Below, piece by piece: positions 1 to 19,050 of a stretch of DNA of 64,000 bases (its first letter is position 1; every line of letters starts with the position of its first letter). Location: positions 34,294,680 through 34,358,679 of the forward strand of contig CM037857.1 in the NCBI GenBank assembly GCA_021292105.1, given 5' to 3'. The notes beneath the pieces were generated by a model, which did not search any database, was not told the origin of the DNA, and was given only the letters and a program-made list of their open reading frames with translations. Position numbers and translations under genes: made by a program. This DNA comes from Anadara kagoshimensis (taxonomy: Eukaryota; Mollusca; Bivalvia; Arcoida; Arcidae).

Positions 1-3000
1 AACCAATACTTGTGTTATTTCAAAAACACACGCTCCGTTGCAAATATGACATGACGGCTGTTAATTCCCATCATTCCACACTTTGGAACACATTGTTCCT
101 GATTCCAGTGACGTATTACAAATCCATGGCCAATTTTGGTTTTAAACATATTTCTGTTTATTAAAAAAATGTGGTGTTATTTCAAAAAACACGCTACCGG
201 TTCCACATCTGACAATGCTGACTGTTAGTTCCCATCATTCTACAACTTTGGAACACATTGTTCCTGATTCCAACGACGTATTTACAAATCGGTAGCCAAT
301 TTTGGTTTTGAGCTGATATGTGTATTATTGCTGTAAAACCAAGAATTGTGTTATTTCAAAAACACGCTACCGGTTGCAAATCTGACATGAGCGGCTGTTA
401 ATTCCCATCATTCCACAACTTTGGAACACATTGTTCCTGATTCCAACGACGTATTTACAAATCGGTAGCCAATTTTGGTTTTGAGCTGATATGTGTATTA
501 TTGCTATAAAACCAAGAATTGTGTTATTTCAAAAATATGCTACCGGTTGCAATCTGACATGACCAGCTGTTAATTCCCATCATTCCACAACTTTGGAACA
601 CATTGTTCCTGATTCCAATGACGTATTAACAAATCCATAGCCAATTTTGATTTTAAACAGTATTTCTGTTTATTAAAAAAATGTGGTGTTATTTAAAACA
701 CGCTACCGGTTCCACATCTGACAATGCTGGCTGTTAGTTCCCATCATTCCACAACTTTGAACACATTGTTCCTGATTCCAATGACGTATTTACAAATCGG
801 TAGCCAATTTTGGTTTTGAGCTGATATGTGTATTATTGCTGTAAAACCAAGAATTGTGTTATTTCAAAAAACACGCTACCGGTTGCAAATCTGACATGAC
901 CAGCTGTTAATTCCCATCATTCCACAACTTTGGAACACATTGTTCCTGATTCCAATGACGTATTAACAAATCCATAGCCAATTTTGATTTTAAACAGTAT
1001 TTCTGTTTATTAAAAAAATGTGGTGTTATTTAAAAAAACACGCTACCGGTTCCACATCTGACAATGCTGACTGTAAGTTCCCATCATTTTACAACTTTGG
1101 AACACATTGTTCCTGAATCCAATGACGTATTAACAAATCGGTAGCCAATTTTGGTTTTGAGCTGATATGTGTATTATTGCTGTAAACCAGAATTGTGTTA
1201 TTTCAAAAACACGCTACCGGTTGCAAATCTGACATGAGCGGCTGTTAATTCCCATCATTCCACAACTTTGGAACACATTGTTCATGATTCCAACGACGTA
1301 TTTACAAATCAGTAGCCAATTTTGGTTTTGAGCTGAATGTGTATTATTGCTGTAAAACCAAGAATTGTGTTATTTCAAAAATACGCTACCGTTGCAATCT
1401 GATATGACCAGCTGTTAATTCCCATCATTCCACAACTTTGGAACATTGTTCCTGATTCCAATGACGTATTAAAAATCCATAGCCAATTTTGATTTTAAAC
1501 AGTATTTCTGTATTAAAAAAATGTGGTGTTATTTAAAAAACACGCTACCGGTTCCACATCTGACAATGCTGACTGTTAGTTCCCATCATTCTACAACTTT
1601 GGAACACATTGTTCCTGAATCCAATGACGTATTAACAAATCGGTAGCCAATTTTGGTTTTGAGCTGATATGTGTATTATTGCTGTAAAACCAAGAATTGT
1701 GTTATTTCAAAAACACGCTACCGGTTGCAAATCTGACATGACCGGCTGTTAATTCCCATCATTCCACAACTTTGGAACACATTGTTCCTGATTCCAACGA
1801 CGTATTTACAAATCGGTAGCCAATTTTGGTTTTGAGCTGATATGTGTATTATTGCTGTAAAACCAAGAATTGGGTTATTTCAAAAAACAAGCTACCGTTT
1901 CCACATCTGACATGAGCGGCTGTTAATTCCCATCATTCCACAACTTTGGAACACCTTGTTCCTGATCCATGACGTATTAACAAATCGTAGCCAATTTTGT
2001 TTTGAGCTGATATGTGTATTATTGCTGTAAAACCAAGAATTGTGTTATTTCAAAAATACTTTACCGGTTGCAAATCTGAAATGAGCGGCTGTTAATTCCC
2101 ATCATTCCACAACTTTGGAACACATTGTTCCTGAATCCAATCACATATTAAAATCGGTAGCCAATTTTGGTTTTGAGCTAATATATGTATTATTGCTGTA
2201 AAACCAAGACTTGGTTTTTCAAAAAACACGCTACCGGTTGCAAATGACATGAGGCGCTGTTAATTCCCATCATTCCACAACTTTGGAACACATTGTTCCT
2301 GATTCCAGTGACGTATTAACAAATCCATGGCCAATTTTGGTTTTAAACAGTATTTCTGTTTTATTAAAAAAATGTGGTGTTATTTCAAAAACACGCTACC
2401 GGTTCCACATCTGACAATGCTGACTGTTAGTTCCCATCATTCTACAACTTTGGAACACATTGTTCCTGATTCCAACGACGTATTTACAAATCGGTAGCCA
2501 ATTTTGGTTTTGAGCTGATATGTGTATTATTGCTGTAAAACCAAATTGTGTTATTTCAAAAAACACGCTACCGGTTGCAAATCTGACATGAGCGGCTGTT
2601 AATTCCCATCATTCCACAACTTTGGACACATTGTTCCTGATTCCAACGACGTATTTACAATCGGTAGCCAATTTTGGTTTTGAGCTGATATGTGTATTAT
2701 TGCTATAAAACCAAGAATTGTGTTATTTCAAAAATATGCTACCGGTTGCAAATCTGACATGACCAGCTGTTAATTCCCATCATTCCACAACTTTGGAACA
2801 CATTGTTCCTGATTCCAATGACGTATTAACAAATCCATAGCCAATTTTGATTTTAAACAGTATTTCTGTTTATTAAAAAAATGTGGTGTTATTTAAAAAA
2901 ACGCTACCGGTTCCACATCTGACAATGCTGGCTGTTAGTTCCCATCATTCCACAACTTTGGAACACTTGTTCCTGATTCCAATGACGTATTTACAAATAG

Positions 3001-4748
3001 GTAGCCATTTTGGTTTTGAGCTGATATGTGTATTATTGCTGTAAAACCAAGAATTGTTTTATTTCAAAAAACACGCTACCGGTTGCAAATCTGACATGAG
3101 CGCTGTTAATTCCCATTATTCCACAACTTTGGAACACATTGTTCCTGATTCCAACGACGTATTTACAAATCATAGCCAATTTTGGTTTTGAGCTGATAGT
3201 GTATTATTGCTGTAAAACCAAGAATTGTGTTATTTCAAAAAACACGCTACCGGTTGCAAATCTGACATGAGCGGCTGTTAATTCCCATCATTCCACAACT
3301 TTGGAACACATTGTTCCTGATTCCAACGACGTATTTACAAATCGGTAGCCAATTTTGGTTTTGAGCTGATATGTGTATTATTGCTGTAAAACCAAGAATT
3401 GTGTTATTTCAAAAATATGCTACCGGTTGCAAATCTGACATGACCAGCTGTTAATTCCCATCATTCCACAACTTTGGAACACATTGTTCCTGATTCCATG
3501 ACGTATTAACAAATCCATGGCCAATTTTGATTTTAAACAGTATTTCTGTTTATTAAAAAATGTGTGTTTTCAAAAAATACGCTACCGGTTCCACATCTGA
3601 CAATGCTGACTGTTAGTTCCCATCATTCTACAACTTTGGAACACATTGTTCCTGAATCCAATGACGTATTAACAAATCCATAGCCAATTTTGATTTTAAA
3701 CAGTATTTCTGTTTATTAAAAAAATGTGGTGTTATTTCAAAAAACACGCTACCGGTTCCACATCTGACAATGCTGACTGTTAGTTCCCATCATTCTACAA
3801 CTTTGGAACACATTGTTCCTGAATCCAATGACGTATTAACAAATCGGTAGCCAATTTTGGTTTTGAGCTGATATGTGTATTATAGCTGTAAAACCAAGAA
3901 TTATGTTATTTCAAAAAACACGCAACCGGTTGCAAATCTGACATGACTGGCTGTTAATTCCCATCATTCCACAACTTTGGAACACATTGTTCCTGATTCC
4001 AATGACGTATTTACAAATCATAGCCAATTTTGGTTTTGAGCTGATATGTGTATTATTGCTGTAAAACCAAGAATTGTGTTATTTCAAAAAACACGCTACC
4101 GGTTGCAAATCTGACATGAGCGGCTGTTAATTCCCATCATTCCACAACTTTGGAACACATTGTTCCTGATTCCAACGACGTATTTACAAATCGGTAGCCA
4201 ATTTTGGTTTTGAGCTGATATGTGTATTATTGCTGTAAAACCAAGAATTGTTTTATTTCAAAAAACACGCTACCGGTTGCAAATCTGACATGAGCGGCTG
4301 TTAATTCCCATCATTCCACAACTTTGGAACACATTGTTCCTGAATCCAAGGACGTATTAACAAATTGGTAGACAATTTTGGTTTTGAGCTGATATGTGTA
4401 TTATTGCTGTAAAACCAAATTGTGTTATTTCAAAAAACACGCTACCGGTTGCAAATCTGACATGAGCGGCTGTTAATTCCCATCATTCCACAACTTTGGA
4501 ACACATTGTTCCCGATTCCAATGACGTATTTACAAATCGGTAGCCAATTTTGGTGTTAAGCTGATATGTGTATTATTGCTGTAAAACCAAGAATTGGGTT
4601 ATTTAAAAAAAATGGTACCGGTTGCAAATCTGACATGAGCGGCTGTTAATTCCCATCATTCCACAACTTGGAACACATTGTTCCTGAATCCAATGACGTA
4701 TTAACAAATCGGTAGCCAATTTTGGTTTTGAGCTGTTATGTGTATTAT
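1..4748. repeat. Satellite array, about 173-bp unit, roughly 27 copies
   Basis: Head-to-tail copies recur about every 173 bp; for example the 'attattgct.taaaacc' segment lies near 328 and again near 501. Two half-unit variants alternate. The common one reads 'gtagccaattttggttttg', then 'agctgatatgtgtattattg'. The rarer one reads 'catagccaattttgatttta' and runs into 'cagtatttctgtttatt'; it is seen near 141, 651, 990, 1490, 2340, 2850, 3530 and 3690. Nearly every unit has the palindrome GGAACAcatTGTTCC. Divergence between copies is low, mostly single-base indels. The array continues beyond the left edge and ends abruptly where transposon sequence starts. No coding potential seen. Confidence 0.97.
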
Positions 4749-4826
4749 TCGCTCTTTGCGGCCAACTGTTCAACCAGAGTTATCGTCCTGAATGCAGGCA
4801 TAGTCTAACTTCCTGTCAAGGTCATA
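4749..4826 (+). repeat. Left inverted repeat of the outer element
   Basis: The segment with TTTGCGGC, AGAGTTATCGT, TGCAGG, ACTTCC and CATAG recurs in the same order in the reverse complement of 18072-18149, at roughly three-quarters identity. It begins exactly where the satellite stops. It may be sub-terminal if the true end lies within the array. Confidence 0.6.
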
Positions 4827-5057
4827 GATTGTCATAACTATTTAGATAGGATTGGACGCTTTGGTAAGCCTGTTAAGCTGCACAATTTGCCTAAGGAGCC
4901 GTATTTAAGGAAAGCATGGATGATTGCGATAAGTCGGAAGGATTTCTCTCCAAAAAGGACGTTTGTTTGCTCGGACCATTTTCCAAACGGCGATGGCAGA
5001 ACCTGGCGACATAAAGTGCCAAGTTTGTTCTCCCTCAGAAGAAAACCAAACCAGTTG
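4815..5057 (+). pseudogene. THAP zinc-finger exon of the outer transposase
   Basis: The reading frame gives ...DCHNYLDRIG..., then KLHNLPKEPYLRKAW, then FVCSDHF and HKVPSLFS. This matches the C2CH THAP finger: a Cys near the start (DCHN), the conserved Trp after the Pro, the C-x2-H of VCSDHF and the closing VPSxF. THAP fingers bind the transposon ends in this kind of transposase. The first Cys of the finger is not visible where expected, and the start codon is not certain. A donor-like GTAAAC at 5058 would end the exon. The next exon is at 5899. Confidence 0.75.
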
Positions 5058-5345
5058 GTAAACGCACCAGCAAGAACAGTAGTAAAATAGTGCAGATCCA
5101 GGGCAGTTTGTTGAACATGTCCAACATGATGTTGGCACTTTTCACACCTATGTAGTAATAACAATAAACTTTATCTGTTTATATTCAATTACAGTGTTCA
5201 TCATATCATGGAAATCTTTATATAGCATATGTTTGTATATGAATATTAACATACTATGCTGTTACATTTACAGTAAATCTACTGTGAATATGGTCCCAGT
5301 TCTAAAACCATCAAAATCATTTCAATATATATACATTTTAAAAAC

Positions 5346-5590
5346 TAGGGTGGCTTAGCAGTTAAGACTTTGATCCTAAAATCAAAGGGCTCTTACTTCT
5401 GTGGGTTAGATCCCTGCTGGGACCATGTGTGAGAAAATGAATTTCCCTTCCCATTGGCCCTTACTGGGTGGCTGGTGTCAGTTTAGTGTGACCATGTGAT
5501 GTGTTAATCTGCAATATTGTGTACCAGTGTGCTAGCACTCTAAAGGTGACCACGGTGTGCTTTATTACAAAGCGGATCACAAACACTACA
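5346..5590 (+). mobile_element. tRNA-derived SINE copy (third type) in a transposase intron
   Basis: An A-box-like GGTGGCTTAGCAGTTAAGA and a B-box-like GGGTTAGATCCC lie about 50 bp apart, followed by an unrelated body. This is the layout of a Pol III promoter in a tRNA-derived SINE. It lies in the intron between the THAP and HTH exons. Boundaries are approximate and no target duplication was identified. Confidence 0.55.
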
Positions 5591-5898
5591 CATAATCATG
5601 CACCACTTGAAATTTGTGAATAGATTGACCCATTAAATCATTGCATGGTCCTGAAATGATATACCAGTATATGTCATGTTTAATAGGACAGTTTAATTCT
5701 AGTACAAACAAATTTTAATGAGGTCTTGAAATATTTGAAACATTCAAATCTTAAATAATGCATAAGAAGCTTCACTTAATTTGAAAGTGAATAATTTTTT
5801 TCAGACCTTATGAAAACATTTAAAGTGCAATTCAATTCTTAGAAAAGGGGAAATCTCATTCTCTTATTCATCTCTCTCTCATCTTTTTTTTATTTTAG

Positions 5899-6313
5899 AT
5901 ATGCCAAGGATACTAAAGCATCAGTATCATGTACAGGTCCTAGCATGTTGGCAGTGTATCAGAATATCCAAGTCAAGCTTTCATCAGTAGATGAATCTAC
6001 AATTAGTGACAGACCAGAAATCACAATTGAGGATATACAAAGCAGTGATACCCAGATTCAGTTTTACACAGGGTTGCCAGATTTTTCAACATTCATGGCA
6101 TTATTTGACTGTTTAACTGAACATGGGGCTGACAAAATTATCATAGATAATAATTTAAGAACTGCAACAGGTAAAAGAAAATTGAGACTGATAGATGAGT
6201 TTCTTATGGTTATGATGAGATTGAGATTAGGACTACTGTTGAAGGACTTGGAGTATAGGTTTAGAATCTCAGCTAGTAGAATATCTAGAATCTTTAGTGC
6301 CTGGATAACATTT
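5899..6313 (+). pseudogene. HTH_Tnp_4 exon of the outer transposase (first half)
   Basis: The exon follows a pyrimidine-rich acceptor ending TTTTAG at 5898. It reads ...FYTGLPDFSTFMALFDCL..., then LIDEFLMVMMRLRLGLLL and ISASRISRIFSAWITF. The last stretch is the helix-turn-helix that precedes DDE_Tnp_4 in this family (typically DEFLLxLMRLRLGLL...FxISxSxVSRIFxxWI). The exon stops being transposase after ITF because another transposon is inserted at 6314. The same reading frame resumes at 14293 (ICKCLQSIVYLPKLDD), directly after the duplicated ATTT. Confidence 0.85.
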
Positions 6314-6316
6314 GAT

Positions 6317-6522
6317 TGGCGTCACGACAAAAGGGACCTTATCTCTTCTACGTCACAAACGAGATAATCAAGTCAAAGTTTTACCTTTTTCGCGCTGAAA
6401 AACACGGAAAACACGGAAGTCAGCTATTTATTTCTGAAGACGGCGGTGACTATGCGGATTGGTATTCAAATGTATTAGTGTTTGAAACACAGTGTAGTCT
6501 ATCTACTATAATGGAATCTGAG
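6317..6522 (+). pseudogene. Inner transposase gene, exon 1
   Basis: The open frame includes FYLFRAEKHGKHG, then QLFISEDGGDYADWYSN and LVFETQCSLSTIMESE, ending at a GTAATT donor (6523). The frame enters the next exon in phase 0 at 8906. No ATG starts it; the frame runs back into the terminal inverted repeat, so the true start was either lost or lies at a non-AUG codon. I recognise the later exons better than this one; its membership rests on phase and position. Confidence 0.55.
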
Positions 6523-8164
6523 GTAATTTAAAACAAAATGTTCAGTATAAAGCATTTTATTCCACATTTATATATAACATCTACATAATCTTGACATTAA
6601 ACTTACACAATCAGATTCTCCGATTATTTTTTCACTATCGTAGATATCCTTTTAAGTTTCAACATTTACGGATAGATTTTAATTTTATGTGAAGTTAAAA
6701 ATAATTTGAACCGTAATATAATATATTCCATTTAACACACGAAAACCAGTTTTGACTAAGTTTAAAAATAATGCAGACGGATTTTTTTTAACTTTCAAAA
6801 ATATCATGTTGATTCGAAATATCTCGATCTACGAAACTGACAAATGTTTTGAAAAATTATCGTCAGAAAGTATACTACATCAGCAATACAAAGTAAAACC
6901 ACATTAAAATAATCTATCCTCTAAAAATATTTACAGATTTCTGTTCCAAAAAAGGGAATGTTCGTTCTAAAAAATTGGAAAATTAACTACGCAGACTAGC
7001 TATTGATCTACTGCGTAAATGACGCTAAAACACTGCGTATAAAACATGTAGCCTGTCTGTTTTCCTTATTTACATGATTGAATAATGATTACAATATATT
7101 TAAACAAATAAGCAAGATCCAAAAAAAAAAAAAATGCAAATTAACAATAACACAGCCGAACCTATTCAACCGTTAGCTCGCCCTACTCAGTCTAGAGAAG
7201 TCATGTCGAGATACCGAGTGTCTTCTTTTACGTCCGTACTATGAGGTCATAAACTAGATCGTTGGTTGACGATGCAAATCGTTGACTTATCATACAACAT
7301 ATTTAAATGTAAATTATTGTACGATAGTTTACGCAATGTTAATTTAATTTACAAGACTGTCCAAATGGCTGAAATCACAGATGCTCTACAATATATAACC
7401 ATGTATCAAACTGGGAAGGTAGTAAATTATTATCTAGAACACTTGCCTATGTAATTTGACGCATGTTTTCGATTCCCAGATCGACCCTGGATTTCTCCTT
7501 AAAATTTGGTTCCCAATATGACCCTCAAAAGTATTTAATCAGCAATTTCAGTCCATCAGGAGGATTTGGGTATGGAATTCCCCACTTGTTTGAAACTCAA
7601 GAAAATGGGGAATTAATGTAGCGATCTGGCTAGCTCAGTTGGTAGAGCACTCATCTATAAAGTGCTTTCATGAGGTCTTTGATTCGATCATTGGTGCGAC
7701 CACGCATCTGCAATTTTTGTTCTTCTTGTTACAAGCGCAATCGAAAATGCTATACGTTTATTTACACAGATAATATTTATAGTAGTTAAATGGCCTACCA
7801 TGGAATAAAATAATTTTTAACTGAAAAAATGTAACTGTTTCCAAATAAAACAAATACTATATATCCCAAGTACAGAAATATCAAAACGGGCGAAATAAAA
7901 AAATCAAATTAAGCTATAGCATTTCGCATTTTCGGATTTTGGTCGCAAAAATTAAATTGAAACAAATTAAAACATATCATTGAAATTCCGTAATATAAAA
8001 ATACACATATGGTATGACTACTATGACTACATGTTTTCTGTTTAATTCAAAAGTTACTTGTAACATAACGATTTCAATTTCCATTTTCAAACTTAAGTTA
8101 ATGGATATATCAATCTGAACGAAATATTGTGTTGGAAGAATGTTCTTAGTTTTAAAGACTATTC
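6523..8164. other. Intron of the inner transposase gene
   Basis: AT-rich non-coding sequence. Besides a tRNA-like segment at 7624-7706, nothing recognisable was found. A 62-codon open frame at 7266-7454 has no motif and looks like chance. Confidence 0.5.
7624..7706 (+). repeat. tRNA-like segment, probably a SINE head or tRNA relic
   Basis: TGGCTAGCTCAGTTGGTAGA is a near-perfect A box, and GATTCGATC about 40 bp on resembles a B box. The bases around the T-loop do not pair and no acceptor stem closes, so this is not a working tRNA. It shares its head with the main SINE family of this window. Confidence 0.6.
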
Positions 8165-8395
8165 GTAGTGGGAGGTTGGGTTCGAACGTGGACCGAGTCT
8201 GACAAAGACTTGAAATTAGGTAGTGTTTGTTTTTCTTTCAACAATTACTCGGCATTTAGAAATGAAAGGCACGAGGTAAAACCCGATGTTTTGTTCAACG
8301 GTAGGTGTGTCACACATGACCAAAGACCCCTCCCACATGTCAGCGTACTGCAACGGTATAACATTCTAGCACGTCTAGCCAATGAAGTCTCAATT
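8165..8395 (+). mobile_element. Old fragment of the main tRNA-derived SINE
   Basis: GTGGGAGGTTGGGTTCGAAC and the following 'gagtctgac.aagacttgaaa' match the B-box region and body of the SINE just downstream. The A box is missing. It is more diverged than the next copy. Confidence 0.6.
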
Positions 8396-8400
8396 TTAGT

Positions 8401-8790
8401 GACCACTTCAATAGCTCAATTGAAAGAGTGTTCGCCTGTATGTTGGATGTTGTGGGTTCGAACCCCGGTCGGGTCTGACCAAGACTTCGTAGTGACTTTT
8501 ATTTTGCCAAGCAATCAGCATAATCCATTAGAAATGAAAGTCACAGGGTCCTTCGGAAGGGACCTTAAAACCGATTCCCAGTGTCACGGCAGGCGTGACA
8601 CACACTGCAGGCGTGACACGTAATAGAACCCTCCGTGAACATTTCTCTGTGTACAAAGCAAAGGTAACATATAGCTGGTGAAGTCTCGATATAAGTGAAA
8701 TATTTCACATTAAATCACATTCAATCAATCAATTTAGTGAAATAGTTTTGACTGGGATGTTAAACTATATTCAATTGATCAATCATTTAA
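8401..8790 (+). mobile_element. tRNA-derived SINE (main family), plus strand
   Basis: A-box-like AATAGCTCAATTGAAAGAGT, then B box GGGTTCGAACCCC, a body with 'gtctgaccaagacttcgtag', and the family's 3' part with CTCGATATAAGTGAAATATT and TTGACTGGGATGTTAAAC. It lies in the intron just before exon 2 of the inner transposase. Other copies of the family are at 15241, 18180, 32465, 57367, 58388 and 63797, all on the minus strand. Confidence 0.85.
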
Positions 8791-8905
8791 CCTTGCTCCT
8801 GCTTTTGTGAGATTGAGACCCCGGGATTTCCCTACACTTGTGAATATACAATGTGTATAAATATTATATAACTGAGATTTATTTCAGATTTTCTTTCTTT
8901 TTTAG

Positions 8906-10377
8906 TTAATTGATTTTGTAAATGAGGAGTATTTTCCAGCATACCAAATATCGGTTCCGCTTAGAGCAAATGAAGTAAATTACATGTATGAAGACCATGA
9001 TAATGATGAGGAGGAAAGTGTACATTCAAGAACAGTTGAGGAGAGGGTTCAAACATTTTTATCCCAGTGTGATGAAGACCAAGACTGCCATATTGGGTAC
9101 AATAGGGATGAACTGGTGAGAAAGGTTTCTGGTGGCTGTGGCTGCGGTTCACATTGCTATTCAAATATTGAATTGGAGGAGATATATTAAAACATTTTAA
9201 ATATGCGGGAATTAACAAAAGGAGAGAAGGGAAAATTGACGAGTAAAGGCATAGGTCAGAAAGAAGAAACAACAGAAGGAACAAAGAGGAAAAGATACAG
9301 TTATAATTTTGATGATAGAGAAGTATGTAGGACAGCATTTTTGACCATTCATGACATAGGTATAAAATATTTAAAAAACATATTAAAGCATTTGAAATCA
9401 AATGGAGCCACACCACACACACATGGTAATGAAGGTCGCCGAGCAAAGCATGCCTTTTCTTTTGAAGACACCAAATTATGCGTTGCCTTCATTTTGAATT
9501 ATGCCTCCGAATATGGGTTACCACAGCCTGCTGCGCCATGTACCCACCGATCTTATTACCAGCGTACTGTACAAAGAAAGATACAGTCAAACCTGTCTAT
9601 AAAGGCCACTCAAGGGAACCAGTAAAAGTGGCCTTTATGGGCAGGTGGCCTTTATATACAGGTTCAAATAATATGAATAAAGAACAATTAGGATATAATT
9701 CTACTGGCCTTTATAAGCAGGTGACCTTTATATAGAAGTGGCCTTTAAGGCAGGTTGGACTGTATCCACAATTTGTATGTGGAATCCTGTACTGAGAATG
9801 GCAAACGTAGTGCAAAGTTAACGGTTTTTAAAAACATTTGGACCAACTGCTGCTCAAATATCAAAATAGCAAACCCGAGATTCGATGTATGTGCTACATG
9901 TGAACGTTTAAAAGATGGGATTGTGCAGGCAGTTACAGAACATGACAAGTTAGATGCTACACAGGCACTTACAGATCACACAAAAAGAACACAAAGTTTA
10001 CATCAATGATTGCAAACTGGCCAAAGAAGAACTCCCTTTAACATCTGCAGTGCCGAACATAGATCCATCTTCACCATGCTCAACAGATTTTAGTAATGTT
10101 CATTACACAGCCGATTTTGCCCAGTGCTTGATGCTACCACATAGATCTCGTCAGCCTGGACCACTCTACTTTTTAACAACTAAAAAAGTACATCTATTTG
10201 GCATATGCCAGGAAGGAAGACAACAGATGAACTACTTGATTGATGAAGCGGAAACGATTGGTGAAGATGGAAAATCCACCCATGGACCAAATGCTGTTAT
10301 ATCTATGTTAGACCATTTTCTGAAAACTCATGGATGCGGTGAAGTTAAATTTACACTTCATTGTGATAATTGTCCAG
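8906..10377 (+). pseudogene. Inner transposase gene, exon 2 (core domain)
   Basis: The exon follows a TTTTTTAG acceptor and ends at a GTATAT donor. It contains a Cys-rich knuckle (GGCGCGSHCYS), a conserved block (REVCRTAFLTIHDIG), FDVCATCERLKDGIV, then the catalytic-type block TADFAQCLMLPHRSRQPGPL, THGPNAVISMLDHFLK and FTLHCDNCPG. The D of 'DFAQ' and of 'CDNCPG' are likely DDE-type acidic residues. I know this architecture from mollusc and cnidarian transposon-derived proteins and tentatively call it DUF7869-like. Damage: an in-frame TAA at 9188, a MITE at 9584-9762, and a frame change near 9980. Confidence 0.75.
9584..9762. mobile_element. 179-bp TIR MITE with TA target duplication
   Basis: The left end CAGTCAAACCTGTCTATAAA and the inverted right end (CAGTCCAACCTGCCTTAAAG) form TIRs of about 28 bp. 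TA flanks both sides (9582-9583 and 9763-9764). This is the Tc1/mariner or pogo signature. It splits exon 2 of the inner transposase. A sister copy lies at 53278-53428, and its end motif seeds the 91-bp array at 49.3 kb. Confidence 0.9.
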
Positions 10378-10546
10378 GTATATACAATGAACTAAAACTG
10401 ATATATAACCTATCGTCTCAATTTTTGACAAAGATTAATTTTTTCTATTCTAAATTATTAGTTTTATCTTTACTGCTTTCGTTGCTAATTTCCAATGACC
10501 AATGTTACAAAACTGGAACCTACGATATTCATTGACTCAGCTAGAA

Positions 10547-10596
10547 AACACACACATACACACACACACACACACTCTCTCTCTCTCTCTCTCTCT
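10547..10596. repeat. Compound (CA)n(CT)n microsatellite
   Basis: CA dinucleotides followed directly by CT dinucleotides, in the intron between exons 2 and 3 of the inner transposase. Confidence 0.95.
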
Positions 10597-10780
10597 TGCA
10601 TACACACTACTGAATCAATAGACGCCTATTTATAACACCTAATCAGACTATCAAGACTAGTCATCTGTGAAATGTGTTTATCTATACATCCTGTAAGATT
10701 GTTACTGAAACTTGTTTATCTGTATATAATGTTTTTACTTTTACATGCATATTTATTTCTTAATTTTCATTATATTTTAG

Positions 10781-10931
10781 GCCAATTCAAAAATAGATAT
10801 CTCCTTGCCTATTTGATGTATCGTGTTATCACTGGTAAGAAAAGAGAGATTGAATTAAAGTTTCAAGTACCGGGTCACACTAGATGTCTTGTAGACGCTG
10901 GTTTCGCATATATAAAGAAATTATACCGTAG
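10781..10931 (+). pseudogene. Inner transposase gene, exon 3
   Basis: The acceptor TATTTTAG precedes GQFKNRYLLAYLMYRV, then QVPGHTRCLVDAGFAYIKK and LYRR, and a GTAAGT donor follows. With the previous exon it gives CDNCPGQ-KNR..., and GHTRCLVDAGFAYIKK is the most conserved block of the family. Phase 1 in and phase 2 out match the neighbouring exons. This exon carries no stop. Confidence 0.85.
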
Positions 10932-11078
10932 GTAAGTTTAAATCTTAGAGATTTAAAAGAACTATATGATGTTTTTGTAACACAAAAGAGATGACAGTTG
11001 ACTATACATTAGCGAGGGCAATGAACATATTTATTTATGTATTCACAGTCTAATTTTCTCTTTATTATAAAGATAGGT

Positions 11079-12682
11079 TTTTTAGCTCACCTGACCGAAG
11101 GTCATGTGAGCTTATGGCATAGCGCAGCGTGTGTATGTGCGTGCGTGCGTGTGTGCGTGTGTGCGTGCGTCGTTAACACCTATTTTCAACTTCTCCTCTG
11201 AAACTACTGGACAGTTTTTAATGAAACTTTGTCAGAAGTATATATGGGCCGGTGCAATTCAGATTTGTTCATGGCGTTGCCATGGCTACCATAACTAGGT
11301 CAAGGTGACCTAGGGGTGCAAAAATCTTAAAAAATCTTCTTCTCCGAAAGTACTGATTGGAGAAAAAATCTGATGTGATATTTGGCTTCTCTAGGGTCTT
11401 AAGCCTATAGTTTGTTCATTTTGTGAAATTCAGATAAAAAATAGGTTACGCGTTTTTGCGTTTAATTTTGAAAAAACCGTAAAATAGCTTCAAATTGTTA
11501 TAACTTGACTATTTGACCAGATAATGACATGGGGTTTTCAGTTTTGACATCTTCTTGTTAGTATCTTCAAAATGAGGTCAAGGTCAATTGTGAAGGTCAT
11601 GACCTAATTTTTGTTACCTCTGATTATAATTATTATCTCAAAAACTTTAAACTTTTTGTTAAGGCATGTATATTAGAATGTTGTAGGTATTGATACAACG
11701 ATCATTTTGATGTATAGAAAAAGGTCATGGGTTCAAAGGTCAAGGTCACTGATGTGAAACAATACTGAATGGTTAATTATCTCGAAAACTATAAACTTTT
11801 TGTATAGGCATGTATATTAGAATGTTGTAGGTATTGATACAACAATCATTTTGATGTATAGAAAAAGGTCGTGGGTTCAAAGGTCAAGGTCACAGATGTG
11901 AAACAATACGGAAATGGTTAATTATCTCGAAAACTATAAACTTTTTGTATAGGCATGTATATTAGAATGTTGTAGGTATTGATACAACGATCATTTTGAT
12001 GTATAGAAAAGGTCATGGGTTCAAAGGTCAAGGTCACAGATGTGAAACAATACCGAAATGGTAAATTATCTTGAAAACTATAAACTTTTTGTATAGGCAT
12101 GTATATTAGAATGTTGTAAGTATTGATACAACGATCATTTTGATGTATAGAAAAAGGTCATGGATTCAAAGGTCAAGGTCACAGATGTGAAACAATACCG
12201 AAATGGTTAATTATCTCGAAAACTATAAACTTTTTGTATAGGCATGTATATTAGAATGTTGTAGATATTGATACAACGATCATTTTGATGTATAGAAAAA
12301 GGTCATGGGTTCAAAGGTCAAGGTCACAGATGTGAAACAATACCGAAATGGTTAAATATCTCAAAAACTGTAAACTTTTTGTATGGGCATGTATATTAGA
12401 ATGTTGTAGGTATTGATACAACAATCATTTTGATGTATAGAAAAATGTTATGGGTTTAAAGGTCAAGGTCACAGATGTGAAACAATACTGAAATGGTTAA
12501 TTATCTTGAAAACTATTAACTTTTTGTATAGGCATGTATACTACAATGTTGTAGGTATTGATACAACGGTTATCATGATGTTAAGAAAAAAGTCATTGGG
12601 GTTTAGTATTTATGTTTTCTTTAAATCTATCAGCTAGCCATTAGTTATCAGGTGAGCGTATCAGGCCCATGGGCCTCTTGTT
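11079..12682 (-). mobile_element. Pearl-like element A with about seven 145-bp core repeats
   Basis: One end is TTTTTAGCTCACCTGACCGA, which folds into a hairpin (GCTCACCTGACC pairs with GGTCATGTGAGC). The other end has the palindrome AGGCCCATGGGCCT followed by CTTGTT. The core is an array with a 144-145-bp period from about 11640 to 12590, each unit containing AAAGGTCAAGGTCAC. Copies B (19433-22434) and C (50942-52826) have the same ends and core. The design, hairpin ends around a minisatellite, resembles non-autonomous Helitron/Helentron (HINE or 'pearl') elements; that class is inference. Strand is given in the sense where the element starts AACAAGAGGCCC. Confidence 0.75.
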
Positions 12683-12689
12683 ATTTTAC

Positions 12690-12975
12690 AGAAGTTGGTT
12701 GGTTGGTTGAATGTTGCTTAACGTAGCATCAGCAATTCTTCAGCTATTCGCGACGAGAACTATTTTATTAATCTCTATGGATTACTCTATGAACAAGTTG
12801 ATGCATGCATGTGAAGTGCTAGTGTGTTGTATGGTCTGCCTTGTACTAGCGCGCACTCATGGCGACATTAATATAAGTGCTAGCTCGCCGAGTCAGTACG
12901 CCACAGACAAGCGTACCACTCCCCCAGCTACATTATACTGACACCGTGTGAACGGCTAGGAAATTAACTTTCCCA
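12690..12975. repeat. Interspersed repeat in intron 4 of the inner gene
   Basis: GTTGGTTGGTTGAATGTTGC, then CTTAACGTAGCATCAGCAAT and CTATTCGCGACGAGAAC, resembles a repeat common in mollusc DNA, probably a SINE tail. Without another copy in the window the boundaries and class are guesses. An open frame of 76 codons inside has no motif. Confidence 0.4.
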
Positions 12976-12997
12976 CATGTTGTCTGGTGTTTTACAG

Positions 12998-13177
12998 AAG
13001 TGACGCAGAGTGTATGGCACATTTAGAGACCATAGTCAACAAGTCAGCAAAGACAAATGTGGCACAGAGAATAATAGATGATGGTGGCAATACTTTGGTA
13101 CAGTGGAAGAACTGGAAAGAATATTTAGGGACACGTTTTAAGAGTTTCAAGGGAATTAGAAAAGTACACATGTTCAG
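12998..13177 (+). pseudogene. Inner transposase gene, exon 4
   Basis: After a TTTTACAG acceptor it reads SDAECMAHLETIVNKSA, then LVQWKNWKEYLGTRFKS and IRKVHMFR, ending at GTATAT. This matches the family block after the GHTR motif (SDxxTLxxLxxxVxxSA...WxxWKxFLxxxF...GIRKxxHFR). Phases 2 in and 2 out are consistent with exons 3 and 5. It has no internal stop. Confidence 0.85.
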
Positions 13178-13544
13178 GTATATTCATAACATAATATCTA
13201 TCGGCATGTATATATACATGCACGGTGTAGTTTTTTTAACCAAATGTTGGCCACTGTGAGTAAAGTGGCTTTAGTGACATGTCTTATAAGACTAAGTAGT
13301 TAAGTGAGTTTACACATAATGGTCACCACAATATCAAAACCATTTAGAAAATGGCATTTTTGCAATGAATTTGAAAATCACATTCTATATTCATCGATGA
13401 TAAATGCATTTTCAACAAAACTTTCTTTTTGACAGATCGCTTTCAAACCAAAAGGAATTCATCAACACCTTTCAATTATTATTGTACTCTGAAAATTAGT
13501 TAGATACAATGAATTGAATATATAATCAATAATATATTTTACAG

Positions 13545-13763
13545 ATTCTCCATGTTGCAGCCAGGTCTTCTGTTTTACCAGGAACACTCTGATTCAAACG
13601 TGCAGACATACAAGTTAAATCTAGAAGACAACGTTATGGTGAACCCAAACTACCTGTTGCAGGTCTGAGTCGGGAGAGACATCTCTATCTGGTCAATAAC
13701 GTCAGACAACATGTGAGACAGCAATTTCAGAATGCTTTCTGCCCAGCAATGGTTGAGGAATAA
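13545..13763 (+). pseudogene. Inner transposase gene, exon 5 and stop
   Basis: The acceptor TTTTACAG is followed by FSMLQPGLLFYQEHSDS in the phase set by exon 4. The downstream family-like stretch GLSRERHLYLVNNVRQHV and its TAA at 13761 lie in another frame, so one frame change falls around 13640. The expected C-terminal layout (INLLKPG..., then ...LSxxRxxYL...) is recognisable but shortened. Confidence 0.7.
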
Positions 13764-14260
13764 ACAGTTATTGTCATGGCAACCGTTTGAAATCAATGAC
13801 AACAAAAATTTGAATAATTTGTTTGTGAATGCCTGACGTTTTTGACGTTAACGTGTGCTAATTACCATAACTCTTTATTGAACTTCTGTTTAGGATCCAT
13901 TTATTCTGAATGATAAGAGTACATAATCGTTTCTATGGTAACCGATTTTTTCCTTTTTTTTTTACTTATTTTTACTTATTTGTAAATTCAGATTAGTTGT
14001 TGAAAACATTAGTCGATATTGATAACCATAAATCTTGCATAAATCATCATAAGTAACAATGGCAGAACGAAGTAGTTGTTCTTTTATGCGTAACTAATAT
14101 TAACTGATAATTACAGATTACAGACCAATTATTGTGACGTCATGAAGCGCCCATAGCAACGAGAATAGTTATCCTAGAAACCAAAAACTGCCTTTATTAC
14201 AAAGAGGAAATGTTGTGCTATAATATAAGACAAAAAAATAAAAATGTAAAATTTTGACCT
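13764..14260. other. 3' flank of the inner element
   Basis: AT-rich sequence between the transposase stop and the right TIR at 14261-14288. No gene or repeat recognised. Confidence 0.5.
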
Positions 14261-14288
14261 TAAGGTCCCTTTTCTCGCGACGCCAATC

Positions 14289-14858
14289 ATTTATATGTAA
14301 ATGTCTTCAGAGTATTGTATATTTACCAAAGCTGGATGATATGACCAAGGTACCCAAGTGCTTTGAGAATTTTTCAGACACTAGAATTATCTTAGACTGT
14401 ACAGAGTTGTTTGTACAGACTCCATCTTCACTGCATACTCAAAGTCAGACATATTCAAACTACAAATCCCACAATACATTCAAGGCACTGGTGGGGATAA
14501 ATAAGACCGGGCAGTTACATTATTTCTAGACTTTGGGGAGGTTCAGCATCAGATACTGAGATAACCAGAAAAAGTGGTCTTTATGATTTGCTGCAGCCAG
14601 GAGATGCAGTGATGGTGGACAAGGGGTTTATTCACATTAAGAATGATCTTGAACAGAGAGGTGTGAAACTGTATTGTCCACCATTTCTCTCCAAGAATCA
14701 GTTGTCAAAATCGGAGGTGGAACAGACGTAAAATGGAACAAATTAAGAACTTTCGGATTCTTCAGGGAATACTTCCTCTGAGTTTAGGTCACATTGTGGA
14801 TGAAATATTTTTCATCTGTGCAGCTCTTACTAACCTTCTGCCTCCACTTGTTAAGTAA
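14289..14858 (+). pseudogene. DDE_Tnp_4 catalytic part of the outer transposase
   Basis: It reads ICKCLQSIVYLPKLDD, IILDCTELFVQTPSSL, SQTYSNYKSHNTFKALVG, then in another frame SRLWGGSASDTEITRKSGL and GDAVMVDKGFIHIKNDL, and finally NFRILQGILPLSLGHI and FFICAALTNLLPPLV. The D of LDCTEL and the D of MVDKGF are the first two catalytic acids of DDE_Tnp_4. There is a frame change near 14525 and a TAA after 'SEVEQT'. A short deletion follows that removes the segment where the family has its third acid (HVERAIxRIK). The protein is inactive. It resumes exactly after the ATTT duplication made by the inner element. Confidence 0.85.
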
Positions 14859-15240
14859 ATATTTTTCACATAAGTACAATGACTGAAATGTATTGGTAGC
14901 AGTAAATGGAGGATTATGTGATTTTGTTTATGAGTCAGCTTTAGCTGACCCCAATTATACTTGTTATGATATTAAAAGTGACTTTTTTGTTTCTTCTTTC
15001 AGTATCATATGTTCTGAAGCATCAATTCATCTCCAGTAATATATAAGAGGATCTTGCATGAGAGTTCATGTAATATTGAATTTATTAAACGAGTTGATTA
15101 AATCTTTGTGCAACGAGCCTTGTGCAACAAGTTTAACAAATTCAATGTCATATGATCACAAATGTAAGATTCTGTTCATTGTATACATGTAATTCTAGAA
15201 AATGTCATTTTTGTTTCCTTGTTATAAGAGTTGAGTGAGT
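14859..15240. other. Spacer, no gene seen
   Basis: AT-rich sequence between the end of the transposase and a SINE. Nothing recognised. Confidence 0.5.
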
Positions 15241-15580
15241 GAGTTGAGTAATGGTGTTTAATGTCCCAGTCAAGAATATTTCACTTATATCGAGACGTTG
15301 CCAGCTATAGACGAAGGTGCAGAAATTTTGCCTGTGCGTTGGGCTTATGACATTATACAGCAGGGTTCTTTATCGTGCCAAGCCCACCGTGACACGGGAC
15401 CTCGTTTATTTTAAGTTCCCATCCGAAAGAACCTTGACTTTCATTTTGTTTTACCAAGTGCTTGGCAAAAGAACAGTCACTACCCACTTTCAAATCTTGG
15501 GTCAGACCCGGCCGGGAATCGAACCCACTACCTCCCACTTACGGAGCGAGCACTCTACCAACTGAGCTACGGCAGTGGTA
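15241..15580 (-). mobile_element. tRNA-derived SINE, minus strand, nearly full length
   Basis: On the minus strand it starts CCGTAGCTCAGTTGGTAGAG (A box), then GGGTTCGATTCCC (B box), a body with 'ggtctcgtgtcacggtgg'-type sequence, and ends CACCATTACTCAACTC. This is the clearest copy of the main family in the window and lies between the two convergent genes of the outer element. Confidence 0.9.
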
Positions 15581-15959
15581 CTAAGCTAATGAAAGTTTTT
15601 ATTATTAAATTTACTAATGAAATAAGTTATAATTTTAGGGTAAAAGTGTTGCAAGTTTAATGTGGCTGTTTGGCTGTATAAACCTGTGATAGTGACGAGT
15701 TTTGCCTGGCCTTAATTGCACAAATAATGACTTGATCAATACAATGTATTCAAACTAAAGGACAAAGAGTTGGATCAAATTTATTGAGAAATTATATTAA
15801 AATCTTAGTTATGAGGAAATATTTTTAAAATACCCCCCCCCCCTTTTTTTTGTGATTTTATTTTATTGGCAATACAAATGTACATGAATACTCTATTCAT
15901 TGTGCCAACTTACAGGTTTGTGATAAAAATTTTAGAATTTAATATTGGTTTTATAGTGC
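15581..15959. other. Spacer with C/T homopolymers
   Basis: Contains a run of about 11 C followed by T near 15832-15850. No gene recognised; the 3' end of the minus-strand nuclease gene may reach in here. Confidence 0.4.
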
Positions 15960-17345
15960 TTGGTTATTTCTGGAATCATGTAGCTAACATAAGAACTTTC
16001 CAATTTTTTCAACATTTCTTTCCAAAATGACCTGTCAATTTTATCTGTATAATTTTGAAATCTTGCTTTGTGTAAATCACAAAGTCACACTTTTCTATTT
16101 TACATACTCCCATTTGACCTTGTACTTAGCTATAATAGCGGTGTCCAGTTTTCAAGCAAATTTCATTTGTATTTTGATCAATGAAACAACAAAACTGCTT
16201 TAATTTACATGCCTCTGTTATGGACTTGTCCCTCATACTATATGGACACTTGATTTCTTATAAATACTTGTTCATTTTCTTTTGGTTATACACAAGCCCA
16301 TCAGGACTTGCTCCCAAAAATCCATAACCCTCACACAGCCTCAATCCAACATTCTCTACTGTAACATTTTCCTTGTGATGGAGTTTTTTATATGCAAGGT
16401 ACTTTTTCCTTGCAATTGGTTCATATTTCTTCCCCATCTAATGGGCATAGTATCACTTCATCTGAGTTTCCAAAAATTAATTTTTGAAGTAATTTTGCTA
16501 CTGGGGTTGTGGACTTTCTGACAAGAATGTCATGAAAGTTGGAGCTCGTTATTCTATTTTTTCTAGTAAGCTTCCATAATGTGTTCTCATTTTGACCCCT
16601 TGTTCTTGTTTCCAACTCTTTGATTACTGTGTCTGGAACATGCATTGTTTTTTCTATATACTGTTTTCTCATCATAGTTATATTTTCTTAGTAACTGTTC
16701 AAGATTTATATATTCATCAGAGTCATACACTATATGTTCTGATGTTTCAACTTCTACTGAACAGATAACATTTAAATCTGACACAACCTCACTGCTTTTC
16801 TGAGAGACAGGAGGCAATAAATCCATAAGAACTGCATTAGAATTGATATTACTTAGTTTGCATTACAAGCTTGTTCTAAAATGCTCACTTTGTGGTATTA
16901 TCTCTGGAAGTGGTTTAGCAGGCCTTCCTATACTGTCAGGTCTATATTTGATCTTTTTGAATGTAATATTTTCCACAACATCAGGCTCTTTTCCTTTTCT
17001 TAGGTTTTGACCACTCACATTGACGAGAGGTACAAGACTCTTCACTATCGCAGTTCCCTGCAGCATTAGCTTCTAACGAAAACAGCAAGCCAGCCACATG
17101 TGTGCAACCTTCTCCTTGTCTGCAATAATTGTATTACATTAATTTTATTAATTAATTATGTCCCCCCAAATTTTCGGGAGAGACATATTGTTTTGTTCGA
17201 AAAGTCTGTCTGTCTGTCCGTCACAAATCATGTCAGACTCATAAGTTTTGAATGCATAAAAAGAATTTGAAATAACTTGGCATAAATGTTCACGGACACT
17301 GGAGTAAATGTCAAGAAAAGACAAACACATTTTACACCTAAAGGC

Positions 17346-17379
<34 letters not shown>

Positions 17380-18043
17380 CCATGAAAACAAAATTATCTA
17401 TACAAAAAAATTATTTTTGTATATATATGGGTCTAGTATCACCAATGACTCACCCAGCAGGACAAGAACAGTAAGCCTTTAGAATGGTATATGGAGCATC
17501 CTTTGATAAACACACCCACTGGGTGCAAGTGCCTTGTTTCATAGATGGGTAACATTTTGATCGAATGTAGCACATTTTAGAGTCCTTCTCTATCAAATTA
17601 ACCATAATATTATGAATATAACCCTCCTTATAGAAGTTGAATCCTCTGATGAATTGGCGATAACATTCCATCTTTCCACTGTCTTCTGTCCTGTGACTAC
17701 TATAAAGGTATTGTTCAACATCTCTGTGTGATATATGTGGAAATAGTTTTGTATTACTCGTCCAACCAGAGTTCAGAGAATCAACAGAAATAATACCAGT
17801 GGCAGAGACATGGCTGTTTGATCTAGATTCAGTATCCGATAATGACCCCTTCTCTCTGGCGTCACTGACACTACTAGTAGGCATGCACACATTGTCTTCC
17901 TTGTTAACTTCAAAAGCTCTTTGAGCTAGTTCTAATTTTGTACCGCTTATTTTCCTGTTTTTCTGTTTTAAATATGTTTGTAATGCCGACTTTTTTAGTG
18001 CCAATAAGTCTTCAACAGTTGTGTTTTCATTCAATAAACTCAT
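15960..18043 (-). pseudogene. SAP-SWIM-YqaJ nuclease gene of the outer element
   Basis: The first exon begins at ATG 18043 (MSLLNENTTVEDLLALKKSA) with a SAP-like DNA-binding helix pair (ALQTYLKQ, then GTKLELAQRAF). It ends with CSCPAG at 17454 before GTGAGT. The next exon starts at 17119 after TTGCAG with GEGCTHVAGLLFSLE. Together these give a SWIM zinc finger (CxC...CxH). Further on come NRITSSNFHDILVRKSTTP (YqaJ start), GFLGASPDGLV at about 16297-16323, EIKCPYS at 16238-16258 and YYS-VQGQ at 16114-16138; the SPDG aspartate and the E-x-K are the nuclease signature. A frame change follows the SWIM exon, and in-frame stops precede EIK and interrupt YYSxVQGQ, so it is dead. In the family this nuclease accompanies the transposase; its exact role is unknown to me. 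Confidence 0.85.
17349..17378. repeat. (TG)n microsatellite
   Basis: Uninterrupted TG repeats in the intron between the two SWIM half-exons. The surrounding 17150-17250 sequence (GTCTGTCTGTCTGTCCGTC) looks like a further interspersed repeat. Confidence 0.95.
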
Positions 18044-18071
18044 TTTAAATTTACCCGCTTGAAGACTTAAT

Positions 18072-18149
18072 ACTATGAAACCGGAAGTGGGAGATACCTG
18101 CACTCAAGAACGATAACTCTATTGACATTTCTTGCCGCAAACTCGGAAT
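18072..18149 (-). repeat. Right inverted repeat of the outer element
   Basis: The reverse complement has GAGTTTGCGGC, AGAGTTATCGTTCTTGAGTG, CAGGTAT and CACTTCC, matching 4749-4826 in order. It lies just upstream of the nuclease ATG at 18043, so it probably doubles as that gene's promoter region. Confidence 0.6.
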
Positions 18150-18179
18150 GCACATAAGGGACGTTTCTACTTTGACGGG

Positions 18180-18608
18180 CTCTAATGATGTTCAACGTAC
18201 CAGTCAAGAATATTTCACTTATATTGAAACATCACCAGCTACAGGCGCATGTGCATAAATTTTGCCTGTGCGTTGTGCTGATGGCTGCTATACAGCCAAG
18301 CTACCGTGATGTCATATACCATTTTTTGAATTTAATCATAAAATACATTCAAAAAATGGTATTATTGTCATATACCATTTTTTGAATGTATTTTATGATT
18401 AAATTAAAAAAAATGGTATATGACAGTGACACGGGATCTCGTTTTTTTTTAGTTCCCATCCGAAAGAACTGTGACTTTCATTTGGTAATGTTGAGTGCTT
18501 GGCGAAAGAACAATCATTACCCACTTTCAAGTCTTGGGTCAGATCCGGTCGGGGTTCATACCCACGACCTCCCATTTACGGAGCGAGCAGTCTACAAACT
18601 GAGCAACA
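18180..18608 (-). mobile_element. tRNA-derived SINE, minus strand, split by a foldback element
   Basis: The ends match the main SINE (CAGTCAAGAATATTTCACTT at the left; CGGAGCGAGCAGTCTACAAA at the right on the plus strand). An extra 116 bp lies at 18310-18425. The A box has decayed (CTGAGCAACAGC instead of CTGAGCTACGGC). It caps the right end of the outer transposon. Confidence 0.85.
18310..18425. mobile_element. 116-bp foldback MITE inside the SINE
   Basis: It begins TGTCATATACCATTTTTTGA and ends with the reverse complement of the same sequence. Two arms of about 55 bp meet at the middle with only a few mismatches. GTGA flanks it on both sides (18306-18309 and 18426-18429), and removing it with one GTGA gives the SINE consensus 'ccgtgacacggga'. 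Confidence 0.9.
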
Positions 18609-18613
18609 GCAAC

Positions 18614-19050
18614 GAACTTAGAAGCAATAAAGTTATATGATTGATGTTGTGATAAAATAAACAAAACAAAAACCCAACTTTTATTTCGATCGTTATTTAT
18701 TTAAAGTAAATTATTGTTATAAATTTTAACGATTAGTACAAGTTACGGCCGAAGATTATATGTTGCATCTTGCACCCAGTGGACGGTTTACTGACTATAC
18801 AGGAGTGCGAGATAACCCTCCTAATTTACCGAACTTAGAAGCAATAAAGTTATTTGCTTGATGTTGTGATAAAATAAACAAAACAAAAACCCAACTTTTA
18901 TTTCGATCGTTATTTATTTAAAGTAAATTATTGTTATAAATTTTAACGATTAGTACAAGTTACGGCCGAAGATTATACGTTGCATCTTGCACCCAGTGGA
19001 CGGTTTACTGACTATACAGGAGTGCGAGATAACCCTCCTAATTTACCGAA
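18614..19050. repeat. Tandem duplication, 217-bp unit, two copies
   Basis: GAACTTAGAAGCAATAAAGT starts at 18614 and again at 18831, and the two copies are nearly identical up to 'aatttaccgaac'. The sequence after the second copy (19055-19250) carries 'tagtgtgagaaaattcgttt' and 'cttcggtttcctccacc', fragments of the second SINE family. Confidence 0.9.

Follow-up and report, generated by a model that had tools for sequence, protein, structure and literature searches.

The 64,000-nucleotide window of the Anadara kagoshimensis genome analysed here (C1:34294680-34358679) contains a transposase gene whose helix-turn-helix (HTH) and DDE parts are held apart by some 8 kb of DNA with inverted ends, which raises the question of whether this segment is an intron of the gene or a second transposon that landed within one of its exons. 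A first-pass annotation of the window had proposed two stacked transposons. Our results support a longer history in which an ISL2EU-type transposon came first, a Sola2-type transposon split its transposase exon, and a miniature inverted-repeat transposable element (MITE) and a HINE-like element inserted into the Sola2-type element. To this account as a whole we assign a probability of roughly 0.85. The proposed nesting stands; the count of two does not, because the MITE and the HINE add further layers. Further copies of the elements and empty sites were sought in the window's own genome (1.115 Gb in 36 contigs).

An interrupted exon and its empty sites

Removal of positions 6314-14288 together with one ATTT joins the sequence ending in RIFSAWITF to ICKCLQSIVYLPKLDD in one open frame (6313 to 14293), with Pfam family HTH_Tnp_4 on the left and DDE_Tnp_4 on the right, so that the two flanks are in the same frame as first proposed. 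An ordinary intron in the outer transposase gene, with inverted ends that were incidental, would restore the outer frame as well, and it is the uninterrupted copies of the outer element that decide between the two. The outer flanks, joined without the inner element into a 400-base query, matched ten places in the genome. Two of these, C6:6861112-6861511 and C14:66109811-66110209, align at 97% identity over the whole query with no insert and read GGATAACATTTATATG, with a single ATTT, like the joined window flanks. The window itself aligns in two pieces, and the remaining six places match partially at 67-75% identity. In the C14 copy the exon is a single frame of 245 amino acids (aa) with HTH_Tnp_4 (E 2.2e-14) and a complete DDE_Tnp_4 (E 3.5e-43).

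The inner element is thus missing from both full-length outer matches (2/2), from which it follows that the segment is not an intron and that the outer element was there first and the inner element second, as the first-pass annotation had it. That annotation had also proposed looking for an empty site with a single ATTT, and the genome that carries the window holds two. Neither of the findings that it named as refuting, inner copies whose ends lie elsewhere or outer copies with the segment as an intron, turned up in this genome. An exon that is continuous at the site in two outer copies refutes the intron, and the same ends recur at 40 or more scored places. Of the 30 inner-family copies in which both ends were located, 29 are flanked by a 4-bp duplication; the probability left to an intron is close to nil. 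A different objection is that the C6 and C14 sites were once filled and have since been emptied by precise excision, in which case they would not represent the original state. Cut-and-paste elements can excise, but this history needs precise excision at two separate loci with one ATTT left and no footprint, and the three outer copies differ by Kimura two-parameter (K2P) distances of 0.032-0.043, which marks them as old separate copies. We consider it highly improbable. That the inner element split the HTH/DDE exon of the outer transposon is confirmed.

Ends and target duplications of the inner element

The inner element occupies 6314..14288 on the forward strand and measures 7,975 bp, later insertions included. 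Its inverted arms can be aligned from 6313-6341 to 14261-14289 as 29 nt with 93% complementarity. The ATTT copies at 6310..6313 and 14289..14292, its left and right target duplications, fix the element at 6314-14288 and the arms at 28 bp with 26 of 28 positions matching (left 6314..6341, forward strand; right 14261..14288, reverse strand), in agreement with the 28-bp ends and ATTT duplication first described. With up to 3 mismatches allowed, the 25-base terminal sequence occurs in the window at only two sites, the two ends of the inner element, and matches nowhere in 100 dinucleotide shuffles of the window. A chance inverted repeat was rejected on these shuffles (0/100).

The same ends recur elsewhere in the genome. 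The first 187 bases of the element, used as a left-end query, gave at least 40 scored matches (88 candidates at first look), and the last 189 bases, used as a right-end query, gave at least 40 scored matches from 60 candidates, the window being counted in both sets of 40. Among the matches listed, 38 of 40 left ends start at base 1, equivalent to 6314, with the remaining two starting at bases 2 and 4, and 39 of 40 right ends stop at base 189, equivalent to 14288, with one stopping at 186. Three close relatives, L009 (C6), L011 (C5) and the internally deleted L010 (C4), have the same two end bases as the window copy and are 93-97% identical to it in collinear aligned pieces. The termini offered in the first pass are therefore reliable for the family, since they recur across at least 40 scored copies and have been checked against empty sites.

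Flanks were scanned at the window and 20 further loci, only 3 kb being covered at ten third-family loci. Both ends were located at 10 loci, and identical 4-bp flanks were found at 9 of these (the window, L009, L010, L011, L013, L015, L016, L025 and L028). A further set comprises 20 third-family copies, which are all that could be paired by position among the left- and right-end matches listed, and here 20 of 20 have identical 4-bp flanks; nine of the ten loci for which 3 kb were covered also belong to this set, and L020 does not. By sequence the 29 duplications are ATAT (21), ATTT (3), AAAT (2) and one each of ACTT, AATT and ACAT. The pattern AWWT fits 27 of them, the exceptions being ACTT (L011) and ACAT (C7), and the 29 copies range in size from 3.0 to 7.98 kb.

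Several points weigh against reading these duplications at face value. The flanks of L012 are unequal (AATT/AAAT), and the right end of L014 was not found in the flank scan. The 20 position-paired copies were selected for having both ends matched. Most duplications are ATAT, many of them within AT repeats, and left and right flanks deliberately mismatched across copies already agree at 4 bp in 14.3 of 20 pairings. Given this chance level, ATAT targets test little alone, and it is the eight non-ATAT duplications that are informative. L012 itself, 334 bp long, is a MITE-like derivative of the inner family; its ends are damaged, and it lies on the minus strand of C18 at about 12832539-12832868.

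Transposase and superfamily of the inner element

The main exon of the inner transposase lies at 8906..10377 on the forward strand, its edges placed by splice consensus and not by RNA, and contains the first two candidate catalytic aspartates in the motifs HYTADFAQ and HCDNC. Two further forward-strand exons, also delimited by splice consensus, lie at 10781..10931, with the third candidate aspartate in GHTRCLVDAGF, and at 12998..13177, within the region matched by DUF7869. In the window the main exon is broken by a premature stop, frame changes and the MITE, leaving a longest frame of at most 149 aa where L009 has at least 452 aa; the L009 exon as a whole is an open frame of 491 aa. A diverged family, family 2, has a 464-aa counterpart that is 45% identical. 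When window positions 10071-10377, 10781-10931 and 12998-13177 are spliced at the GT/AG consensus they yield an open frame of 212 residues; its match to PF25273, DUF7869, covers 163 of the 192 profile positions and scores 65.8 bits (E 5.2e-18), with a cut-off of 26. The inner and outer elements were described at first as unrelated, and their Pfam families do differ (DUF7869 as opposed to HTH_Tnp_4 and DDE_Tnp_4). The accompanying label of autonomous type is correct for the two families and incorrect for these copies, in which both transposase genes are damaged.

The inner family and family 2 have in common the aspartates of HYTxDFAQ, HCDNC and GHTRCLVDAGF. Comparable motifs (HYTFDFAQ, NCDNCGGQNKN and HARCQIDGMF) occur in L085, a distant single-exon DUF7869 copy. 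Over 99 residues its identity to the core of both L028 (E 6e-28) and L009 (E 5e-24) is 42%, and over 51 residues its identity to window exon 10781..10931 is 37% (E 2e-11). We infer that the three kept aspartates would form the DDD triad of the inner transposase, a prediction from sequence conservation. Across the genome, 88 DUF7869 matches were listed, with none in 14 control genomes. Pfam assigns DUF7869 no function, and it is not mentioned in the literature searched. On balance it is probable that DUF7869 represents the catalytic part, with the second and third aspartates, of Sola2-type DDD transposases. The 88 exon-level matches would then largely be transposon genes, belonging to a number of diverged lineages with GA...TC ends and AWWT targets in common.

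Two observations stand against this link. Taken singly, the 491-aa and 464-aa main exons match no Pfam family above its threshold, and the genome-wide list of 88 matches does not include the exons of the window. The latter were missed because each exon alone is weak: exon 10781..10931 scores 25.9 bits against the cut-off of 26, and single window exons score 25.9 bits or less. A single-sequence AlphaFold model of one window exon (112 residues) has low confidence, with a predicted local distance difference test of 50 and a predicted template modelling score of 0.42. Its order of strand, short helix, strand, strand, helix, strand is suggestive of a ribonuclease H (RNase-H) fold at a confidence too low for use. 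A sequence search of solved structures with the 464-aa exon product gave no match (best E 0.37), and scans of viral contigs with alignments of the inner transposase found no relatives.

A more distant DUF7869 lineage, L084-L094, has ends similar to those of the inner family; GGGCCCTTTT stands close to its right end. The right flank after the final C fits AWWT in 4 of 5 copies, with ATTT (C9), ATAT (C17), AAAT (C3) and ATAT (C4), and the fifth copy (C13), which lacks this C, has ATTA there. None of these copies gave a clean pair of duplications: the C3 copy has ACAT/AAAT, the left end of the C9 copy is damaged and the C13 copy is mismatched, and no left end turned up in the stretches examined for C17 and C4.

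The Sola superfamily, Sola2 included, reportedly goes back to Bao et al. in 2009. The inner element is best called Sola2-type, because its AWWT duplication spectrum, its three conserved candidate catalytic aspartates and its 4-bp duplications fit the published descriptions of Sola2 and Sola. In the text on Sola2 in PMC3627910, the duplications are AT-rich 4-bp AWWT sequences with ATAT, AAAT and ATTT as examples, all three of which occur in the inner family. For Sola as a whole, an excerpt of PMC10741241 describes a DDD transposase, 4-bp duplications and a length of 2-9 kb for most elements; the length of the inner element lies within this range, and its 28-bp ends compare with a criterion of at least 11 bp. 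The family differs from Sola2 in also targeting ACTT and ACAT. Sola2 elements of social amoebae carry Fanzor genes, according to the same part of PMC3627910.

The name, assigned by description, is putative. The nesting could be exactly as described and the inner element nevertheless belong to another 4-bp-duplicating or an undescribed superfamily, with a transposase that Pfam calls DUF7869. The silence of Pfam and of the literature searched on this domain favours such an assignment. On the other side, the ATAT/ATTT/AAAT spectrum equals that printed for Sola2 (PMC3627910, in its Sola2 passage), three conserved aspartates fit a DDD enzyme, and curated bivalve libraries contain Sola2 elements, as stated in an excerpt of PMC10294476. 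We regard another superfamily as unlikely, though deserving of some weight, and retain the name Sola2-type.

The outer element

The outer element extends over approximately 4749..18147 on the forward strand, with imperfect inverted ends TCGCTCTTTGCGG and TCCGAGTTTGCGG. These limits come from relatives: along the window, similarity to the C14 copy begins at 4746 and similarity to the C6 copy stops at 18149. They may be off by 2-3 bases, as ATT/AAT also lengthens the inverted end. Flanking AT dinucleotides at 4747..4748 and 18148..18149 form its left and right target duplications, seen at one locus only, the window. Its transposase begins with a forward-strand frame for a THAP domain at 4809..5090 (PF05485, E 7.8e-10). 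The split exon follows on the same strand, the 5' part at 5843..6313 carrying HTH_Tnp_4 (PF13613, E 2.5e-13) and the 3' part at 14293..14731 carrying DDE_Tnp_4 in two overlapping frames (PF13359, E 4.2e-11 and 2e-11), with a frame change near 14501-14529 in the window copy. A second gene on the reverse strand, at 16421..18103, consists of separate nuclease-like frames with PF01771 (E 1.2e-8) and YqaJ (PF09588); the E value for YqaJ is only 0.16 in the window, compared with 3.7e-14 in the C6 copy.

This architecture matches that of ISL2EU, a group of the PHIS superfamily described in an excerpt of PMC4482050 as having a transposase with THAP, HTH and DDE parts, a second open reading frame with YqaJ and an AT duplication. 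The outer element shares these features together with inverted ends, and we identify it as ISL2EU type. One observation speaks against the assignment: the AT at this locus lies outside the A|AT|T context reported for ISL2EU, T preceding it and G following it in the window. The label was lowered to ISL2EU type on this account and the context treated as a preference, because the AT duplication and the coding capacity are the basis of the grouping in the excerpt of PMC4482050. The window copy also differs in being interrupted and frame-shifted.

Directly to the left of the outer element, positions 3000-4746 hold tandem repeats of about 172 bp (4000-4749 by computation, 3000-4000 by eye), and the element appears to have inserted at the edge of this array. 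Just to its right, at 18322-18412, is a 41-nt inverted repeat with 98% complementarity and a 9-nt gap. A dispersed repeat occurs in the window at 15275-15565, 18183-18611, 8396-8601 and 57366-58731 and is also present in all three outer copies. It contains a stretch that by eye resembles a transfer RNA (tRNA); an ARAGORN scan of 4000-19000 for heads of short interspersed elements called no tRNA.

Later insertions and relative timing

Two insertions within the inner element are younger still. The first, at 9584..9762 in the transposase exon, is a 179-bp MITE flanked by a TA duplication (9582-9583 and 9763-9764), which suggests an element of mariner type. It is absent from L009 and L011, each with a single TA, and the same stretch is deleted in L010. 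The second, at 11083..12681 on the forward strand, has ends that slide by 1-2 bases in a T run and contains about 6.7 tandem copies of a 145-bp repeat, 10-bp subterminal inverted repeats (11085-11094 and 12648-12657) and a 14-bp palindrome (12663-12676) near its 3' end. It is absent from L009, L010 and L011, and L009 shows a T-rich empty site without duplication. HINEs are non-autonomous Helentrons that include the bivalve Pearl elements, in the account excerpted from PMC7492417. The nested element resembles Cg_HINE/Pearl in its central satellite-like array, subterminal inverted repeats, 3' palindrome, T-rich site and lack of duplication, and differs in its repeat unit of 145 bp as against about 160 bp in Pearl (PMC7492417, same excerpt), the likeness being one of build. 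The first-pass statement that the inner element carries younger hits holds for these two insertions, each with empty sites in relatives.

Further to the right, positions 19434-19680 contain the start of another HINE-like copy, which opens with TTTTTAGCTCACCTGACCGAAGG just as the nested element does. Within the inner element, L009 lacks about 344 bp that the window (8425-8768) and L011 share, and CAATTGA marks the junction; this may be a deletion or a further insertion.

Divergence gives a less tidy picture than nesting. The K2P distances of the inner element in the window to L009, L011 and L010 are 0.027, 0.025 and 0.025, and those three differ among themselves by 0.012-0.014. For the outer element the distances are 0.032 (window-C6), 0.039 (window-C14) and 0.043 (C6-C14). 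In opposition to the inferred order, the private branch of the window copy is longer for the inner element (about 1.9%) than for the outer (about 1.4%). A longer inner branch despite later arrival implies that part of it accumulated in the source lineage before the jump, or that rates differ. Nesting orders the events, divergence dates neither of them and no date is claimed; of the relative dating first envisaged, the nesting order survives and the use of divergence does not.

Order of events and implications

What is directly observed are the ends, the duplications, the further copies, and the sites that lack the inner element, the MITE or the HINE-like element. The history that these support begins with an ISL2EU-type transposon settling at the locus. 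A Sola2-type cut-and-paste transposon then inserted at an ATTT within the outer transposase exon; its transposase, presumably by RNase-H-like DDD chemistry, would have made a 4-base staggered cut whose repair duplicated the ATTT. The insertion divided the exon between its HTH and DDE parts and left this outer copy unable to encode an intact transposase. Two later arrivals followed in the Sola2-type element: a TA-duplicating MITE, which interrupted the transposase exon, and a Helentron-derived HINE.

Nested transposons are common, and the event is of an ordinary kind; its proof is unusually complete. The use of the locus lies in boundaries verified by empty sites of the same genome, which make the termini dependable for a family whose ends were scored in at least 40 copies and tie those termini to a transposase with DUF7869. 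Two by-products are of use: certified termini of a Sola2-type family, and a probable function for DUF7869. If the link to DUF7869 is true, the domain could be renamed as a transposase, and unlabelled elements with the same ends could be classified.

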